A stretch of DNA of 64,000 nucleotides from Humibacter albus DSM 18994 (GTDB taxonomy: Bacteria > Actinomycetota > Actinomycetes > Actinomycetales > Microbacteriaceae): positions 124,001 through 188,000 of the forward strand of contig NZ_ATXT01000014.1 in NCBI RefSeq assembly GCF_000421825.1, in the 5' to 3' direction. The position numbers were made by a program, and so were the translations under genes. Positions 56,699 through 63,628 of this stretch are shown here, in pieces. The notes beneath the pieces were generated by a model. It did not search any database and was not told the origin of the DNA. It worked only from the letters and a program-made list of their open reading frames with translations. The first letter of the stretch is position 1, and every line of letters starts with the position of its first letter.

Positions 56699-57517
56699 AT
56701 GATGCTCGCCGCCGCGCGCCAGAGCGCGATAGTCGCCCGCGCCCGGGAACGGGGCACGGTGCGGGTCACCGAGCTCGCCGCGCAGTTCGCGGTGAGTGAG
56801 ATGACCGTGCGGCGCGACATCGATGTGCTGGTGACCAGCGGCCTGCTCGAGCGGGTGCACGGTGGTGCGACTCTGCCGGGCGGGGGGCTCAGCACCGATG
56901 AGCCGGGCTTCGAGTCCAAGGTCGTGCTCCAGGAACCGGAGAAGCTCGCGATCGCGCGGGAGGCGGCATCCCTCGTGCGCGCGGGCAGCGCGATCGGGAT
57001 CAGCGCCGGCACCACCACGTGGCGGCTCGCGTCACTGCTCGCGGAATCGCCGCTGGACTGCACGGTGGTGACGAACTCGGTGCAGGTGGCGAGCGTGTTC
57101 TATCAGCGGGCGCGGCGACGGGCGTGGCACGTCATCCTCACCGGCGGACAGCGCACGCCGTCTGATGCGCTCGTGGGGCCGATCGCCATCTCGGCGCTGC
57201 GCCAGCTGCACCTGGACTACCTGTTCCTCGGCGTGCACGGCATGGACGAGCACGAAGGATTCACCACGCCGAACATGCTGGAAGCGGAGGCGGACCGCGC
57301 GTTCGTCGCGGCGGCCCGGCGGGTCGTCGTGCTGGCCGACCACACCAAGTGGGGCACTGTCGGCATGTCGACCATTGCGGAATTGGACGAGGCCGCTGTC
57401 GTGATCAGCGACGACGGCCTGGGCCCGCACGCCCGTGAAGTGCTCAGCGCCCGTGCGGGCGAGTTGCGCATCGTCTCCGACGACCGGAGCCGACCCCGTT
57501 CAGAAGGGATCTCGTGA
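56699..57517 (+). CDS. DeoR-family transcriptional regulator
   Basis: 272 residues. DeoR winged helix: VRVTELAAQFAVSEMTVRRDI with the following LVTSGLLERVHGGA; effector domain of DeoR-C type with ISAGTTTWRLASLL, VVTNSVQVASVFY, LFLGVHGMDEHEGFT and VVVLADHTKWG. Such regulators respond to a phosphorylated sugar. It lies inside the operon between permeases and alpha-galactosidase, so it probably controls the operon itself. Tandem ATGs at 56699 and 56702; the stop overlaps galA by four bases. Confidence 0.87.
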   Translation: MMLAAARQSAIVARARERGTVRVTELAAQFAVSEMTVRRDIDVLVTSGLLERVHGGATLPGGGLSTDEPGFESKVVLQEPEKLAIAREAASLVRAGSAIGISAGTTTWRLASLLAESPLDCTVVTNSVQVASVFYQRARRRAWHVILTGGQRTPSDALVGPIAISALRQLHLDYLFLGVHGMDEHEGFTTPNMLEAEADRAFVAAARRVVVLADHTKWGTVGMSTIAELDEAAVVISDDGLGPHAREVLSARAGELRIVSDDRSRPRSEGIS

Positions 57518-59706
57518 TCGACAGCCTCCATCTCCGCTCCGGCGGAGTCAGCCTCCTGCTCCAGCTCATCGACGGCGACGTGCGCGTGGTGCACTGGGGC
57601 GCCGACCTCGGGGAGCAGGTGGGCGACCTCGCTGCGTTCGGCGGATCGGTGCCGAACTCGTCGTTCGACAGCCCGCTCCCGGCCTCGCTCATCCCGCAGG
57701 CGGCGCGCGCCTGGCGCGGCGTCCCGGGGCTTTCCGGCGACCGAGGTGCACTGGCGTTCTCACCGCGACTGACGGTGCAGGAGGCATCCCTCGATGAGGT
57801 GCCGGGCGGTGGACTCGGGTCGAGGGCGACGCTGGTGCTGACGGACGAGGCATCCGGGCTGCGGGTCGATGCGGTTCTGACGCTGGATGCCACGGGCCTG
57901 CTTCTCGTGAACCAGACGGTCACGAACACCGGCGGCGACGACTACCGCGTTCACGCTCTGGACGTGTCGCTTCCGGTGCCGTCGCAGGCGACGGAAGCCC
58001 TGGACCTCACAGGACGCTGGGCGCGGGAGAAGCATCCGCAGCGTCGACGCATCGAGCAGGGCGCGTGGGTGCGCAGTGCTCGGCACGCGCGCACAGGACA
58101 CGACTCCACGCTCGTCATCGCGGCCGGGACTCCGGCGTTCTCCTGGCGCTCGGGCGAGGTCTGGGCGATGCACCTGGGCTGGAGCGGCGACCACACCAGC
58201 CGGGTGGAGCAGGTGGGCACCGGCCAGAGGGTGCTCGCGGTCGGCGAGCTGCTGCACTCCGGCGAGCTGACGCTCGCGCCGGGGGAGAGTTACCGCGCCC
58301 CGACCGCGTACGCCGCGTACTCCGCCAGGGGCCTGGACGGCGTGAGCGCGCGGTTTCACTCGTACCTGCGGGCGCGGGACGGGCATCCGTCGACGCCGCG
58401 TCCCGTCGTGCTCAACACGTGGGAGGCCGTCTACTTCAACCACGATCTCGGTGTTCTGACCGAGCTGGCGGATGCCGCGGCCGACCTCGGCGTCGAGCGG
58501 TTCGTCCTCGACGACGGCTGGTTCCTCGGCCGCAGGGACGACACACGGGGACTCGGCGACTGGTTCGTCGATCCCGACGTCTGGCCGCAGGGCCTCACGC
58601 CTCTCGTGGAGCACGTGAAGAGCCGAGGGATGCAGTTCGGACTCTGGGTCGAGCCGGAGATGATCAACGAGGACTCACGCCTCGCGCGCGAGCACCCGGA
58701 CTGGGTCGCGCGGCCGAACGGGGCCGACGGTCGCACCTCGCTGGCGTGGCGCAGCCAGCAGGTGCTCGATCTGGTGAACCCGGATGCCTGGGCCTTCATC
58801 CACGAGCGGCTCGACTCTCTGCTGACCGAGTACCCGATCGACTACCTCAAGTGGGATCAGAACCGCGACCAGCTCGAGCTCGGGCACGACGGGCGGGCGT
58901 CGGTGCACGAGCAGACGCTCGCCGTGTACCGTCTGCTCGACACGCTGCGGGCCGAGCATCCCCGCGTGGAGATCGAGAGCTGTTCCTCGGGTGGTGCGCG
59001 CGTGGATCTCGGGATCCTGGAGCGCACCGACCGGGTGTGGGCATCCGATACGAACGACGCGCTGGAGCGGCAGACGATTCAGCGCTGGACTGGCCTGGTG
59101 CTGCCGCCCGAGCTGGTCGGCGCGCACGTGGGCCCGGCGACCTCGCACACCACGGGACGCACCCACGACCTCTCGTTCCGCGTCGCGACGGCGCTGTTCG
59201 GGCACTTCGGCATGGAGTGGGACGTACGAACGCTGACGGATGCCGAGCGGACCGAACTGCGTGCCGCGATCGCGTTCTACAAGCAGAATCGGCCGCTGTT
59301 GCACGGCGGAGAAGCGGTGCGCATCGACCGGTCCGACGAGAAGGACACCGCGTACGGCGTCGTCGCGCCGGACTCCTCGCGCGCTCTGTTCGTGTACGCC
59401 ACCCTCGCGAGCTCGCCGTACGAGGCACCCGCGCGTCTGCGCTTCGACGGGATCGACCCCGATCGCGTGTACCGCGTCTCGCTCGGGCTGTCGCTCGATC
59501 CGCACGCGGTGGCGCACCGCGGCCTGCCGGCCTGGCTGAGGGCTGGCGCCTCATCCGATGCGCCGACCGACGGTGCCGCACCGGGCACGACCGCGTCCGG
59601 CGCAGGCGTCGTCCTGACCGGTCGCGTGCTGCGGGAGGTGGGCCTTCCGATGCCGGGCCTGCACCCCGAGCACGCGATCGTGGTGGAGCTGACCGCGGTC
59701 GGCTGA
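57514..59706 (+). CDS. Alpha-galactosidase, GH36
   Basis: 730 residues, the length of bacterial GH36 tetrameric enzymes. N-terminal beta domain, then a TIM barrel with FVLDDGWFLGRRDDTRGLGD, FGLWVEPEMIN, the nucleophile Asp in YLKWDQNR about residue 448, SCSSGGARVDLG, and the acid/base Asp in WASDTNDALER about 512. Splits alpha-1,6-galactosyl ends from melibiose, raffinose or stachyose, in the cytosol (no signal peptide). GTG at 57514 overlaps the DeoR gene. Together with the transporter this gives import and cleavage of alpha-galactosides. Confidence 0.92.
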   Translation: MIDSLHLRSGGVSLLLQLIDGDVRVVHWGADLGEQVGDLAAFGGSVPNSSFDSPLPASLIPQAARAWRGVPGLSGDRGALAFSPRLTVQEASLDEVPGGGLGSRATLVLTDEASGLRVDAVLTLDATGLLLVNQTVTNTGGDDYRVHALDVSLPVPSQATEALDLTGRWAREKHPQRRRIEQGAWVRSARHARTGHDSTLVIAAGTPAFSWRSGEVWAMHLGWSGDHTSRVEQVGTGQRVLAVGELLHSGELTLAPGESYRAPTAYAAYSARGLDGVSARFHSYLRARDGHPSTPRPVVLNTWEAVYFNHDLGVLTELADAAADLGVERFVLDDGWFLGRRDDTRGLGDWFVDPDVWPQGLTPLVEHVKSRGMQFGLWVEPEMINEDSRLAREHPDWVARPNGADGRTSLAWRSQQVLDLVNPDAWAFIHERLDSLLTEYPIDYLKWDQNRDQLELGHDGRASVHEQTLAVYRLLDTLRAEHPRVEIESCSSGGARVDLGILERTDRVWASDTNDALERQTIQRWTGLVLPPELVGAHVGPATSHTTGRTHDLSFRVATALFGHFGMEWDVRTLTDAERTELRAAIAFYKQNRPLLHGGEAVRIDRSDEKDTAYGVVAPDSSRALFVYATLASSPYEAPARLRFDGIDPDRVYRVSLGLSLDPHAVAHRGLPAWLRAGASSDAPTDGAAPGTTASGAGVVLTGRVLREVGLPMPGLHPEHAIVVELTAVG

Positions 59707-59768
59707 CGCCCGTCGCGGCTGCGCCGCGTGACGTCGGCCTCGGCGTCGCCGTCGGCCTCGGCATCCGG

Positions 59769-59774
59769 TAGTCT
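59769..59774 (+). promoter_or_regulatory. -10 element (TAGTCT) of the Trp leader transcript
   Basis: TAGTCT ends six bases before the leader-peptide ATG at 59781, so the transcript probably begins at the start codon. No clear -35 is visible; the region upstream is CGGCCTCGGC-like repetitive. Confidence 0.6.
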
Positions 59775-59780
59775 GCCGGT

Positions 59781-59816
59781 ATGCGTTCGACCTTCCTCAC
59801 CTGGTGGCCCGCCTGA
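59781..59816 (+). CDS. trpL: Trp leader peptide (attenuator ORF), 11 residues
   Basis: Reads MRSTFLTWWPA and stops; the two Trp codons are at 59802-59807. It is too short for usual gene finding. Ribosome stalling at the Trp codons when charged tRNA-Trp is scarce would free the downstream anti-terminator hairpin. The peptide appears leaderless, with TAGTCT six bases upstream. Similar leader peptides precede actinobacterial anthranilate synthase genes. Confidence 0.85.
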   Translation: MRSTFLTWWPA

Positions 59817-59876
59817 TCGGCGGACCGACGAACGCGCACCCACGCAGACGACGACCGCCTCTCGGCGGTCGTTTCT
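59809..59876 (+). promoter_or_regulatory. Trp attenuator: pause hairpin, antiterminator and terminator
   Basis: Segment 1 CCGCC (59809-59813) pairs with segment 2 GGCGG (59819-59823). Segment 3 (ACGACCGCC, 59851-59859) and 4 (GGCGGTCGT, 59864-59872) form a perfect 9-bp terminator stem with a TCTC loop, followed by TTTCT. Segment 2 can instead pair with CCGCC of segment 3 (59855-59859), which prevents the terminator. This is the classical attenuator arrangement. Confidence 0.8.
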
Positions 59877-59923
59877 CGTATGCGTGAGGAGCGATCTCCG
59901 GCAGGCGGCCGGGAGAGACCGCC

Positions 59924-62002
59924 ATGAACACGAATACCCCGCCCGCGCTGAGCGACCCGCGGCACGACGTACCGAACGACGCCAGACCCGGCTCGCTGCT
60001 CGCCGAGCTCGTCGACGCGGCGCTTCGTCCGCGTGCCCGCGGCGAACACCTCGCGGTTGATGCGGCAGGCAGCGCCACCGTCGCCTGTCCGCCCTTCGCC
60101 CTGCTGCGCCGCGGCACCGAAGACCTCGAGGTCTTCAGCGGTGACGTCGTCGACGTCGACGCGCTCGCAGGCATCCCGCTGCACGACGCGCCCGTGCTGG
60201 CCGCGGTGCCGTACCGGCAGATCGCCGAGCGCGGGTTTCAGGCGCATGACGACGGCGCGCCGCTGCGCTGCCTCGTGGCGACCCGTCGCGAGCGCGTGAG
60301 CCTGCAGGATGCCCTCGCCCAGCTTCCCGCGCACGCCCCACGCACCACGTTCCACGGCCCGGACACCTCCGATGCGGAATACGCGCAGACCGTGCGAGCG
60401 GTGATCGACGACGAGATCGGCCGAGGCGAGGGCGCGAACTTCGTCATCGCCCGCCGTTTCGAGGCGACGCTGCACGAGGAGCCGGTCTCCTCACTGCTGG
60501 CGTGGATGCGTGCCCTGCTCACCGGGGAGAGCGGCGCCTACTGGACGTTCGCGGTCTTCCTGCCCGCGCCTCCCGTGGCCGAGGAGGGAGCGCCGGCGGC
60601 GTCGGGCGAAGCGGCCGAACCCGTCATGCTCATCGGCGCCACCCCGGAGCGTCACCTCACGCTGAAGAACGGTCATGCGGTGATGAACCCGATCAGCGGC
60701 ACGTACCGGCACGGCGATGACGGCGCGACGCGCGCCGGCCTCCTCGACTTCCTCGTCGACCCCAAGGAGACCGATGAGCTGTTCATGGTGGTCGACGAGG
60801 AGCTCAAGCTGATGAGCGCCTTGTGCCCCGATGGCGGCCGCATGGCGGGGCCGTTCCTGAAGCGGATGTCACGCCTCACCCACACCGAGTATCTGCTCGA
60901 CGGGCATTCGTCGCTCGATCCCCGTGAGGCGCTACGCCTCACCATGTTCGCGCCCACCGTCACCGGCTCGCCCATGCAGAACGCGTGCCGCGTGATCGCG
61001 CGGCACGAGACCCGCCCCCGCGGGTACTACTCGGGCGTGATGGCACTGTTCGAGCCGGAGCGCGACGGGTTCTCGCTCGACGCGCCGATCCTGATCCGCA
61101 CGGCCCGCATCCAGCCAAGCGGACGCGTCACCGTCACGGCCGGAGCGACCCTGGTGCGGCACTCCGACCCCGTCTCGGAAGCGGCGGAGACGCGCGCGAA
61201 GGCGGCGGGCATCCTCACCGCTCTCGGCCTGATGGATGCGACGCCCGCCCGCCCCGAGACCTCGCCCGTCGCCGACGGGCCCGGCTTCGACATCGAGGGG
61301 GACGCCGAAACCGTTGCGGCACTGCAGCGCCGCAACGCCGCGCTCGCGCCGTTCTGGATGCGCGAGCAGGAGCCGAGTGCGGCCGGCGGCGAGCGCCCAA
61401 GCGTGCTCGTCGTCGACAACGAAGACGGCTTCACGCAGATGCTCGCGCATCAGCTGCGACACCTGGGCCTCGCCACCCGCGTGCGGCAGTGCGCCATGGT
61501 CGACGACGTTCTCGAGGACGACCTCGTGGTGTTCGGCCCAGGGCCGGGCGATCCGCGGCGCAACCGGCCCCGCATCGGCCGGCTGCGTGCACTGATGCTG
61601 GAGCGCATCCGCAGCGGGCGCCCGCTGCTCGCAGTGTGCCTCAGCCATCAGGTGCTCGGGATGCTCGGCGGCCACGAGGTGGCGCCGCTCGCCGAGCCGC
61701 GACAGGGGGTGCAGCTGGCGGTGGATGTCTTCGGTCGGCCGGCCAGGGTCGGCTTCTACAACACGTTCGGGGTACGCGGCACGACGCGAGGCGGGGAGCA
61801 GGCGGGCGGGCGACGCGTGGAGGTCGGGCTGGAGGCATCCGTCGACGCCAACGGGTTCGTCACCGCGTTCCGGGCGCCGGGCATCGCCTCGGTGCAGGCC
61901 CACCTGGAATCGGTGCTCTCGCCCGATGGGGAGGCGCTGCTGCGCTCGCTCGTCGAACACGCCCTGACGACGGCGCCGGCGGTGACGTCCGTGGGCGCGT
62001 AA
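59924..62002 (+). CDS. Fused anthranilate synthase family protein (PhzE-like, TrpE-TrpG fusion)
   Basis: 692 residues, chorismate-using enzyme fused to a glutamine amidotransferase. The synthase part (to about 450) has PISGTYRHG, DPKETDELFMVVDEELKLMS and LTHTEYLLDG, which is the PhzE-type variant rather than the usual TrpE wording. The C-terminal domain has the nucleophile Cys in LLAVCLSHQVLGML about 571 and the His/Glu pair in VQAHLESVLS, so ammonia supply is intact. Product may be anthranilate or 2-amino-2-desoxyisochorismate. The Trp attenuator upstream points to tryptophan, and no phz genes are adjacent. Confidence 0.87.
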   Translation: MNTNTPPALSDPRHDVPNDARPGSLLAELVDAALRPRARGEHLAVDAAGSATVACPPFALLRRGTEDLEVFSGDVVDVDALAGIPLHDAPVLAAVPYRQIAERGFQAHDDGAPLRCLVATRRERVSLQDALAQLPAHAPRTTFHGPDTSDAEYAQTVRAVIDDEIGRGEGANFVIARRFEATLHEEPVSSLLAWMRALLTGESGAYWTFAVFLPAPPVAEEGAPAASGEAAEPVMLIGATPERHLTLKNGHAVMNPISGTYRHGDDGATRAGLLDFLVDPKETDELFMVVDEELKLMSALCPDGGRMAGPFLKRMSRLTHTEYLLDGHSSLDPREALRLTMFAPTVTGSPMQNACRVIARHETRPRGYYSGVMALFEPERDGFSLDAPILIRTARIQPSGRVTVTAGATLVRHSDPVSEAAETRAKAAGILTALGLMDATPARPETSPVADGPGFDIEGDAETVAALQRRNAALAPFWMREQEPSAAGGERPSVLVVDNEDGFTQMLAHQLRHLGLATRVRQCAMVDDVLEDDLVVFGPGPGDPRRNRPRIGRLRALMLERIRSGRPLLAVCLSHQVLGMLGGHEVAPLAEPRQGVQLAVDVFGRPARVGFYNTFGVRGTTRGGEQAGGRRVEVGLEASVDANGFVTAFRAPGIASVQAHLESVLSPDGEALLRSLVEHALTTAPAVTSVGA

Positions 62003-62044
62003 CGCGGCCGAGTCGGCCATCCGGCTCCAATTAGGATGGAACGC

Positions 62045-63628
62045 ATGTCCGACGGCTCCTCGTTCTACGTCACCACGCCCATTTTCTACGTGAATGATGT
62101 TCCCCACATCGGGCATGCGTACACGGAAGTCGCGGCCGACGTGCTCGCGCGCTGGCACCGCCAGTCCGGCGACGACACCTGGTTCCTCACCGGCACCGAC
62201 GAGCACGGGCAGAAGATCTTGCGCACCGCCACCGCGAACGGCATGGAGCCCCGCGAATGGGCCGACCGGCTGGTCGACTCGGCGTGGAAGCCGCTGCTGA
62301 AGACCGTCGACATCTCGAACGACGACTTCATCCGCACGACCGACGAGCGGCACGAGACCGCCGTCACCCGGTTCCTGCAGAAGCTGTACGACGACGGGCA
62401 CGTCTACGCCGGCGAGTACGAGGGCTACTACTGCGTCGGCTGCGAGGAGTACAAGCAGCGCGACGAGCTCGACGAGCCGCTCAGCGGCGAATACCAGGGC
62501 CAGCTGGTCTGTAAGATCCACTCGCGGCCGGTGGAGATCCTCAAGGAGAAGAACTACTTCTTCCGCATGAGCGCGTTCGAGGGCAAGCTGCTCGACCTCT
62601 ACGAGTCGCAGCCCGACTTCGTGCAGCCGGAGAGCGTGCGCAACGAGATCATCCAGTTCGTGCGTCAGGGGCTCTCCGACCTCTCCATCTCGCGCTCCAG
62701 CTTCGACTGGGGCATCAAGGTGCCGTGGGATCCCACGCACGTCGTCTACGTGTGGTTCGACGCGCTGCTCAACTACACCACGGCGGTGGGCTACGGCACC
62801 GACCAGGAGCTCTTCGACCGCCGCTGGCCCGCCTACCATCTGGTCGGCAAAGACATCGCGCGATTCCACGCCGTGATCTGGCCCGCCATGCTCATGGCCG
62901 CCGGGGTCGAGGTGCCGCACAAGGTCTTCGGGCACGGCTGGCTGCTCGTCGGCGGCGAGAAGATGAGCAAGTCCAAGCTCACCGGCATCGCGCCGTCGCA
63001 GATCACCGACACGTTCGGCTCTGATGCCTTCCGCTACTACTTCATGCGCGCCATCAGCTTCGGGCAGGACGGCTCGTTCAGCTGGGAGGACCTCTCGGCC
63101 CGCTACCAGGCCGAGCTCGCGAACGGCTTCGGCAACCTCGCCTCCCGGGTGATCGCCATGCTGCAGCGCTATTTCGACGGCGAGGTGCCCGCCGCCGGTG
63201 ACCCAGGTGAGTCCGACCTGCACGTGCAACAGACCGTCGCCGAGGCGACGAAGGACGCCGACGCCGCCATGCAGCGCTTCGCGATCCACGATGCGCTGGC
63301 CGCCATCTGGCGCGTGGTCGACGAGCTCAACGGCTACATCACGGAGCAGGAGCCCTGGGCGCTGGCCAAAGACGAGGGAAACCGCGCGCGCCTGCAGACC
63401 GTTCTCTACACCGCGGCGGAGGGCCTGCGCGCGCTCGCGGTGCTGCTTTCGCCGGTCGTCCCGCAGGCGACGGCGAAGCTGTGGGCGGCACTCGGCGCGA
63501 GCGACGCTCTCGGCGAGCTGACGGCACAGCCGCTGCGGGACGCCGGCCGGTGGGGCCAGCTGCCGGCGGGCATCCGAGTGGAGGCGTTGGAGGCGCTCTT
63601 CCCGCGCATCGATCAGGCCGCCGCCTAG
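62045..63628 (+). CDS. metG: Methionine--tRNA ligase
   Basis: Class I aminoacyl-tRNA synthetase, 527 residues, which charges initiator and elongator tRNA-Met. HIGH motif in VPHIGHAYTE about residue 22; zinc-knuckle Cys in YYCVGCEEYK and a second pair around VCKIHSRP; KMSKS motif in GGEKMSKSKLTG about 306; then an anticodon-binding helical domain. There is no C-terminal dimerisation/tRNA-binding domain, so it is the short form. ATG at 62045 is seven bases behind TAGGAT (leaderless); an ATG nine bases upstream lies within the promoter. Confidence 0.93.
   Translation: MSDGSSFYVTTPIFYVNDVPHIGHAYTEVAADVLARWHRQSGDDTWFLTGTDEHGQKILRTATANGMEPREWADRLVDSAWKPLLKTVDISNDDFIRTTDERHETAVTRFLQKLYDDGHVYAGEYEGYYCVGCEEYKQRDELDEPLSGEYQGQLVCKIHSRPVEILKEKNYFFRMSAFEGKLLDLYESQPDFVQPESVRNEIIQFVRQGLSDLSISRSSFDWGIKVPWDPTHVVYVWFDALLNYTTAVGYGTDQELFDRRWPAYHLVGKDIARFHAVIWPAMLMAAGVEVPHKVFGHGWLLVGGEKMSKSKLTGIAPSQITDTFGSDAFRYYFMRAISFGQDGSFSWEDLSARYQAELANGFGNLASRVIAMLQRYFDGEVPAAGDPGESDLHVQQTVAEATKDADAAMQRFAIHDALAAIWRVVDELNGYITEQEPWALAKDEGNRARLQTVLYTAAEGLRALAVLLSPVVPQATAKLWAALGASDALGELTAQPLRDAGRWGQLPAGIRVEALEALFPRIDQAAA

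Follow-up and report, generated by a model that had tools for sequence, protein, structure and literature searches.

A predicted tryptophan attenuator before a PhzE-type fused anthranilate synthase gene of Humibacter albus

A 64,000-nucleotide stretch of the Humibacter albus DSM 18994 genome (contig NZ_ATXT01000014.1, positions 124,001 to 188,000; hereafter the window) contains a monocistronic gene encoding a fused anthranilate synthase of the PhzE type, TrpEG, which is preceded by an open reading frame (ORF) of 11 codons with adjacent tryptophan codons (WW) and by a series of mutually complementary segments. We are strongly confident that these parts make up a classical ribosome-mediated attenuator through which the gene responds to charged tRNA-Trp, and that the enzyme makes anthranilate for tryptophan. 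Going by the sequences of the leader, the protein and their relatives, the window gene is a Trp-attenuated TrpEG and not a phenazine enzyme, and in its own genome it is an additional anthranilate synthase. An earlier note on this DNA had described the leader ORF, the six-base gap after TAGTCT, the Trp codons, the pairing arms and the 9-bp stem, all of which we find at the same positions; their conservation, the compensatory change in the terminator, the clade of the protein and the relatives in which it is the sole enzyme of its kind were computed here.

We propose that transcription most likely begins at the A of the leader ATG and that the ribosome would load on this leaderless 5' end. With ample tryptophan, the ribosome would reach the stop codon, arm 2 would be unavailable to arm 3, and the 3:4 terminator would form (arms as in Table 1). 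When charged tRNA-Trp is scarce, the ribosome would presumably stall at codons 8–9, and as arm 1 coincides with the two codons that follow the Trp pair, the stalled ribosome would cover it; the GGCGG of arm 2 would then be free to pair with the CCGCC of arm 3, and transcription would enter the gene. The resulting TrpEG would make anthranilate for tryptophan alongside the canonical TrpE encoded elsewhere in the genome.

We searched the window on both strands for short ORFs that have adjacent Trp codons and follow a TANNNT box at a gap of 5–8 nt, and obtained a single hit, the ORF at 59781; 60 dinucleotide-shuffled windows held on average 0.033 ORFs of this sort, never with a terminator. The RNA between 59781 and 59924 folds with a z-score of −3.09, one of 200 dinucleotide shuffles being as stable, and the end of the terminator stem lies 51 nt before the start of the PhzE-type gene at 59924. 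A sigma-70 promoter scan of 59000–62300 gave no hit, and an Rfam scan of 57000–62000 returned eight matches at chance level, none of which reached its gathering score.

The leader is retained by most relatives of the gene. Among 150 sampled Microbacteriaceae genomes, 20 (the window's own included) carry a PhzE-type gene at an E-value of 1e-60 or better, and in 19 of the 20 the gene is preceded by a short ORF whose peptide ends with ...WWPA(S), or with some variant of this, each behind a TANNNT box. Of the 80 loci that were the best, and hence the nearest, of 571 relatives in a genome collection, spanning Microbacterium, Agromyces, Rathayibacter, Plantibacter, Promicromonospora, Myceligenerans and others, 78 carry the leader, the other two having 112 and 1 nt of upstream sequence. 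Taken together as 182 distinct proteins, a set that is not a random sample (40 of its loci, L156–L195, were picked by hand, favouring genomes with several copies), the relatives comprise 144 with a WW leader lying 4–9 nt behind a TANNNT box, 23 with a PhzD neighbour, defined as an isochorismatase match ending at most 170 nt upstream of the protein match, 13 with neither and none with both; two could not be judged, having insufficient upstream DNA. L025, the second piece of one gene, was excluded throughout.

A covariance model of the leader (R1), run against 17 genomes, matched 12 carriers of the gene at 5e-11 or better, all 12 being rows of the alignment from which the model was built, and in the five genomes lacking the gene, which include one from the same genus, found nothing better than 0.005. 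Weak matches elsewhere reached 5.5e-4 at best, and in the window's own genome the model recovered the 59781 site and its antisense shadow and nothing else. In an alignment of 58 leaders (A2), TGGTGG is invariant in all 58 rows, the leaders having been found by their WW; the leaders of four relatives are longer, at 28–30 residues.

That the leader peptide is leaderless, as the earlier note had proposed, agrees well with the sequences around it. A TANNNT box stands 4–9 nt before the start in 154 of 155 loci with a WW ORF, at a distance of 6 nt (75 loci), 7 nt (75), 8 nt (3) or 9 nt (1), so that the gap is 6–7 nt in 150 of the 154. A Shine-Dalgarno-like 4-mer precedes none of 138 distinct leaders; under a laxer test, in which every in-frame start of the structural gene counted, such a 4-mer precedes the structural gene at 87 of the 138. 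When 135 promoters were aligned on the box, they showed an extended −10 element (T at −5 in 63%, G at −4 in 62%, T at −3 in 53% and G at −2 in 83%) and no −35 element; of the extended −10 positions the window promoter retains just two, T −5 and G −2. Comparison with the same-genus relative L006 shows near-identity from the ATG to the terminator, with the DNA on either side diverging. The gap, the missing Shine-Dalgarno sequence and this edge of conservation all agree with transcription starting from the A of the ATG. The leaderless start codon sits inside the outer helix of hairpin 1:2, so ribosome loading and folding may compete.

The terminator stem shows compensatory change. The 58 leaders of A2 were left from the 138 after setting aside 40 that had no terminator or a longer peptide, and then, for closeness, 40 of the remaining 98; because they were chosen partly for their terminator, the percentage of paired positions is raised. 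Five of the nine pairs have changes on both sides, and the double-change cells number 27 against 7.8 in shuffled alignments, with none of 500 shuffles as high; registers slid along the stem pair far less. Across the 138 leaders, 111 have a perfect stem of at least 7 bp with at least three T behind it. The outer 1:2 helix likewise exceeds its control in the 138, the longest helix averaging 6.9 bp; shuffling of its right side lowers this to 5.5 bp. In RNA lacking everything up to arm 2 and ending before arm 4, the 2:3 pairing forms, at −13.6 kcal/mol.

Table 1. Features of the leader region and of the structural gene, in window coordinates.
Feature	Position	Strand	Remark
−10-like hexamer TAGTCT	59769..59774	+	six bases between hexamer and leader ATG (sequence)
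Leader ORF, predicted leaderless; 11 codons, MRSTFLTWWPA plus TGA	59781..59816	+	ATG at 59781, TGA at 59814–59816
Tandem Trp codons (control codons)	59802..59807	+	codons 8–9 of the leader
Outer arm of hairpin 1:2 (TGCGTTCG)	59782..59789	+	pairs with 59829–59836; overlaps the start codon
Inner arm 1, CCCGCC, codons Pro10–Ala11	59808..59813	+	immediately 3' of the Trp codons
Arm 2, GGCGG	59819..59823	+	alternative partners: arm 1 or arm 3
Outer arm of hairpin 1:2 (CGAACGCG)	59829..59836	+	pairs with 59782–59789
Arm 3 (ACGACCGCC), left side of terminator	59851..59859	+	CCGCC at 59855–59859 can pair with arm 2
Arm 4 (GGCGGTCGT), right side of terminator	59864..59872	+	9-bp stem with arm 3; covariation
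T-rich tail, short and interrupted (TTCTCGTA)	59873..59880	+	too weak for the strict terminator scan
Shine-Dalgarno-like GGGAGAGA of the structural gene	59911..59918	+	sequence; 38 nt beyond arm 4
PhzE-type fused anthranilate synthase TrpEG, 692 aa	59924..62002	+	PF00425 and PF00117; leader-bearing side of the tree

The protein itself combines a chorismate-binding domain (PF00425) with a class I glutamine amidotransferase domain (PF00117). Its best relative in the PDB is the PhzE structure 3r74, at 455.7 bits, the next reaching 82.6 bits, and among the matches listed it scores far under the cut-off of every TrpE family model, including that for fused TrpE of TrpE-clade3 (TIGR01815; 118.8 bits, cut-off 739.15). 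The motif DEELKLMS, which the earlier note had taken as a mark of the PhzE type, does not serve as one; 3r74 has DEELKMMA, and the family members in our protein alignment (A1, which omits L010, L011, L019, L024 and L025) have DEELKLMS, DEELKMMS, DEELKMMA or DEEMKMMS.

The genomes of relatives point to anthranilate as the product. We surveyed 52 genomes, which were picked for carrying the gene and are not a random sample, and found a canonical TrpE above the cut-off in 30 and at 663–666 bits in two more. In the other 20, canonical TrpE was not found, nothing scoring above 265 bits, a level close to that of the PabB-like protein of the window's own genome in the TrpE search (238 bits). All 20 have trpD and trpB, and the 17 of them that were scanned hold two or three chorismate-binding enzymes (PF00425), the PhzE-type protein included. 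Since TrpE is not found in these genomes while trpD and trpB are present, the PhzE-type protein is likely the anthranilate synthase there; a WW leader was found in 12 of these 20 genomes.

A quick tree of 90 proteins, which has long branches and a midpoint root and contains no 3r74, places all 23 PhzD-linked proteins on one side of a single branch with a support of 99 in the SH-like approximate likelihood ratio test (SH-aLRT), and all 50 proteins labelled as leader-bearing opposite; the remaining 17 were unlabelled, four of them carrying the longer WW leaders. TrpEG of the window falls on the leader-bearing side, not with the PhzD-linked PhzE proteins. Among the members of the family, plasmid-borne ones in Rhodococcus and Pantoea lie among PhzA/B, PhzF and pyridoxine-phosphate-oxidase-like genes, and others in Burkholderia, Curtobacterium and two Streptomyces adjoin isochorismatase genes. 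The tryptophan-linked role that the earlier note had suggested for this protein is thus borne out, both by the lack of any relative with leader and PhzD together and by the genomes that have trpD and trpB and no canonical TrpE.

On a plasmid of a member of the Microbacteriaceae (Curtobacterium sp. plasmid P20, L200), a PhzD-linked PhzE-type gene is accompanied by genes for an oxidoreductase and a major facilitator superfamily (MFS) transporter; together they may form a small pathway derived from 2-amino-2-deoxyisochorismate (ADIC). One actinobacterial genome (G711) has three PhzE-type copies (L156–L158), each with a PhzD neighbour.

According to excerpts of PMC5958127, sequences give no hint as to why anthranilate synthase reaches anthranilate and PhzE halts at ADIC. 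In a search for residues that tell the leader-bearing from the PhzD-linked set, only five columns separate the two at 90%/80%. Pro388 and Leu325 (window numbering) each occur in 143 of 144 leader-bearing proteins, where the PhzD-linked ones have Ala, Ser, Thr or Val and, in 22 of 23, Ile, respectively; Ala387 occurs in 130 of the 144 (the other 14 have Ser) against Ser in all 23, and Phe287 in 112 of the 144 against Tyr in 20 of the 23. In the alignment with the TrpE chain 1i1q, His320 and Arg392 are matched by a His and an Arg, and we take them to be a catalytic and a substrate-binding residue; the nearness of 325, 387 and 388 to them was counted along this alignment. The ranking of residues mixes function with ancestry, and ancestry alone could yield the differences. 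A speculative proposal, which we regard as rather unlikely, would divide the PhzE-type family into two natural sets, Trp-attenuated anthranilate synthases and PhzD-coupled ADIC synthases, with the changes Leu325 to Ile, Ala387 to Ser, Pro388 to Ala or Ser and Phe287 to Tyr perhaps deciding whether pyruvate is eliminated from ADIC.

For enzymologists, the contrast between the clades would offer matched sets for studying what halts the reaction at ADIC in one branch and lets it proceed to anthranilate in the other. Many actinobacterial genes are ill served by the name 'phenazine-specific', and two simple labels, a WW leader or a PhzD neighbour, sort most of the family; with these labels, this gene alone would no longer lead to a genome being counted as capable of making phenazines.

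Several observations weigh against a classical attenuator controlling an anthranilate synthase. The U-tract behind the 9-bp stem (TTCTCGTA) is short and weak, and a strict terminator scan (at least five T in eight) of 59000–62300 gave no hit; of the terminator with a U-rich tail that the earlier note had described, the stem stands, and the tail is weak. Among the 138 distinct leaders, 27 lack a perfect stem of at least 7 bp followed by at least three T. Complementarity for 1:2, 2:3 and 3:4 is present in the window, and the CCGCC/GGCGG cores of 1:2 and 2:3 are almost invariant among the leaders; covariation therefore neither supports nor refutes these two pairings. With arm 4 included, the balance shifts to the terminator, at −26.4 kcal/mol (3:4 alone, −16.9); as it wins energetically even without the upstream part, antitermination would have to be kinetic, a matter of timing. 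The window's own genome has a canonical TrpE (717.5 bits, cut-off 693), so TrpEG is not the sole source of anthranilate there. Next to this trpE lies a gene that we read as hisI. Also encoded are an isochorismate synthase, a stand-alone amidotransferase and a PabB-like protein that falls just short of its cut-off (310.7 bits against 328.4), and the genome has four chorismate-binding enzymes in total. Finally, no WW leader was detected in eight of the 20 TrpE-less genomes, so the gene does not need an attenuator everywhere.

No WW leader stands behind a −10 box within 900 nt of 11 genes of the leader-bearing clade (L125, L129, L130 and L132–L136 of family f20, and L185–L187 of f45), and all seven of their genomes that were examined are without canonical TrpE; two other f20 genomes (G339 and G230), also without canonical TrpE, have kept the leader, and the attenuator seems to have been lost repeatedly. 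The one locus without a WW leader among the 20 from the sampled Microbacteriaceae genomes (L023, genome G027) belongs to a 1.4-Mb genome that has kept the PhzE-type gene and in which canonical TrpE was not found. A TAGCAT stands 7 nt before the ATG of this gene, which may thus itself be leaderless. A second attenuator near the canonical trpE, PabB-like, MenF-like and PabA/TrpG-like genes of the window's own genome (L026–L029) was considered and rejected, no WW leader lying behind a −10 box there; an ORF with two separated Trp codons inside a long ORF in these stretches was taken as chance.

Three other explanations were weighed against the classical attenuator. A fortuitous origin could be argued from the shortness of the ORF and from the ease with which GC-rich arms arise in DNA of high G+C content; yet the full constellation occurs in none of the 60 shuffled windows, the leader is retained in 144 of 182 distinct relatives, a conservation that we count as refutation, and the same-genus relative is near-identical from ATG to terminator between divergent flanks, which leaves chance with practically no probability. 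We consider it quite unlikely, if much less far-fetched, that the leader peptide matters while the stem mainly gates Rho or translation. The weak U-tract and the negative strict scan would fit such a scheme, as would the S. lividans leaders thrL, leuL1 and trpL2, which excerpts of PMC8079986 describe as being without a typical U-rich intrinsic terminator; however, compensatory change maintains the 3:4 stem, 111 of the 138 leaders have the perfect stem with T behind it, and the GGGAGAGA of the gene lies 38 nt past arm 4 rather than within the terminator stem.

The third explanation concerns the enzyme: a true phenazine or ADIC synthase (PhzE) with an incidental Trp attenuator would tie the supply of a phenazine-type precursor to tryptophan. 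The best solved relative is indeed PhzE (3r74, 455.7 bits), the TrpE equivalog models score far below their cut-offs and the same genome holds a canonical TrpE. Against this, a WW leader and a PhzD neighbour occur together in none of the 182 distinct relatives, a single branch splits off the PhzD-linked proteins, the genomes of 20 relatives contain trpD and trpB and no good anthranilate synthase besides this one, and a title cited in PMC3111181 names the S. venezuelae TrpEG an anthranilate synthase. The window's own genome contains no good PhzD, the best match reaching 35.4 bits at 26% identity, and no phz gene is among the scanned neighbours. We therefore hold a PhzE function to be very improbable, and prefer an attenuated anthranilate synthase.

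The adjacent window proteins scanned by Pfam include no trp or phz gene, in line with what the earlier note had said of the surroundings. Upstream lie two ATP-binding cassette (ABC) permeases, DeoR and a GH36 alpha-galactosidase, and downstream MetG, TatD, an rRNA dimethylase, a GHMP kinase and an MFS protein. In the ORF of the methionyl-tRNA synthetase, a TAGGAT stands 7 nt upstream of an ATG at 62045 (MSDGSS...; region 62032–62047) that is 3' of the first ATG of the ORF (62036), and metG may be leaderless too, with its start at 62045.

The element has well-described counterparts in other actinobacteria. In Streptomyces lividans TK24, according to excerpts of PMC8079986, trpE is monocistronic and follows trpL1 (MFAHSTRNWWWTAHPAAH), which is leaderless; the transcript starts there come from RNA-seq. 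This arrangement shares with the window element a leaderless leader, adjacent Trp codons, hairpins and a single monocistronic gene, as well as a U-rich stretch, which in the window is weak, and differs in having three Trp codons (WWW), an 18-residue peptide, a host in Streptomyces rather than Microbacteriaceae and a measured start. At locus L174, a leader (MFAHSTQNWWWTAHPAAH) precedes a PhzE-type gene of the leader-bearing clade in a genus whose members carry WWW leaders; it is identical to trpL1 in 17 of 18 residues, so that, judged by the leader only, the S. lividans trpE probably belongs to the same PhzE-type clade. A leaderless leader peptide, which the earlier note had singled out, is thus ordinary in actinobacteria (trpL1, trpL2, leuL1, leuL2 and others in S. 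lividans; PMC8079986), and the trp attenuator before a PhzE-like fused enzyme, which it had also found striking, is that of the known Streptomyces TrpEG.

Comparative predictions of trp attenuators in Streptomyces and Corynebacterium, as excerpted from PMC1262725, likewise have a tandem UGG leader, a GC-rich terminator and triples of mutually complementary segments, but serve trp operons, whereas the window element serves a lone fused gene. The same source cites Lin, Paradkar and Vining (1998) for the attenuator of S. venezuelae trpE(G), which like that of the window precedes a fused anthranilate synthase resembling PhzE and, unlike the predicted one described here, was experimentally tested. 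PMC3111181 cites Ashenafi et al. (2008), whose title identifies the fused S. venezuelae TrpEG as an anthranilate synthase rather than an ADIC synthase. According to excerpts of PMC4833913, experiments in S. venezuelae and C. glutamicum support regulation that depends on Trp. Among the papers listed in our literature search, no title or opening of an abstract concerns this gene in Microbacteriaceae. A survey of Trp attenuators in Actinobacteria by Korolev et al. (2015) is cited in the literature and may already list the one in the window.

The Rfam family RF00513, which we take to be the Trp_leader family, has a mechanism in common with the window element; the comparison with it that the earlier note had suggested gave no covariance-model match in 57000–62000, even at an E-value of 5. 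The family is cited as Trp_leader in an excerpt of PMC4046766. On the side of the enzyme, the ADIC synthase PhzE (3r74, 455.7 bits) has the fused architecture of the window TrpEG, whereas the PhzE genes beside PhzD form a separate clade without a Trp leader. Given the S. lividans and S. venezuelae systems and the predicted attenuators, the window element is, as far as its sequence allows it to be placed, a Microbacteriaceae member of the known trpL-trpEG kind of attenuator.

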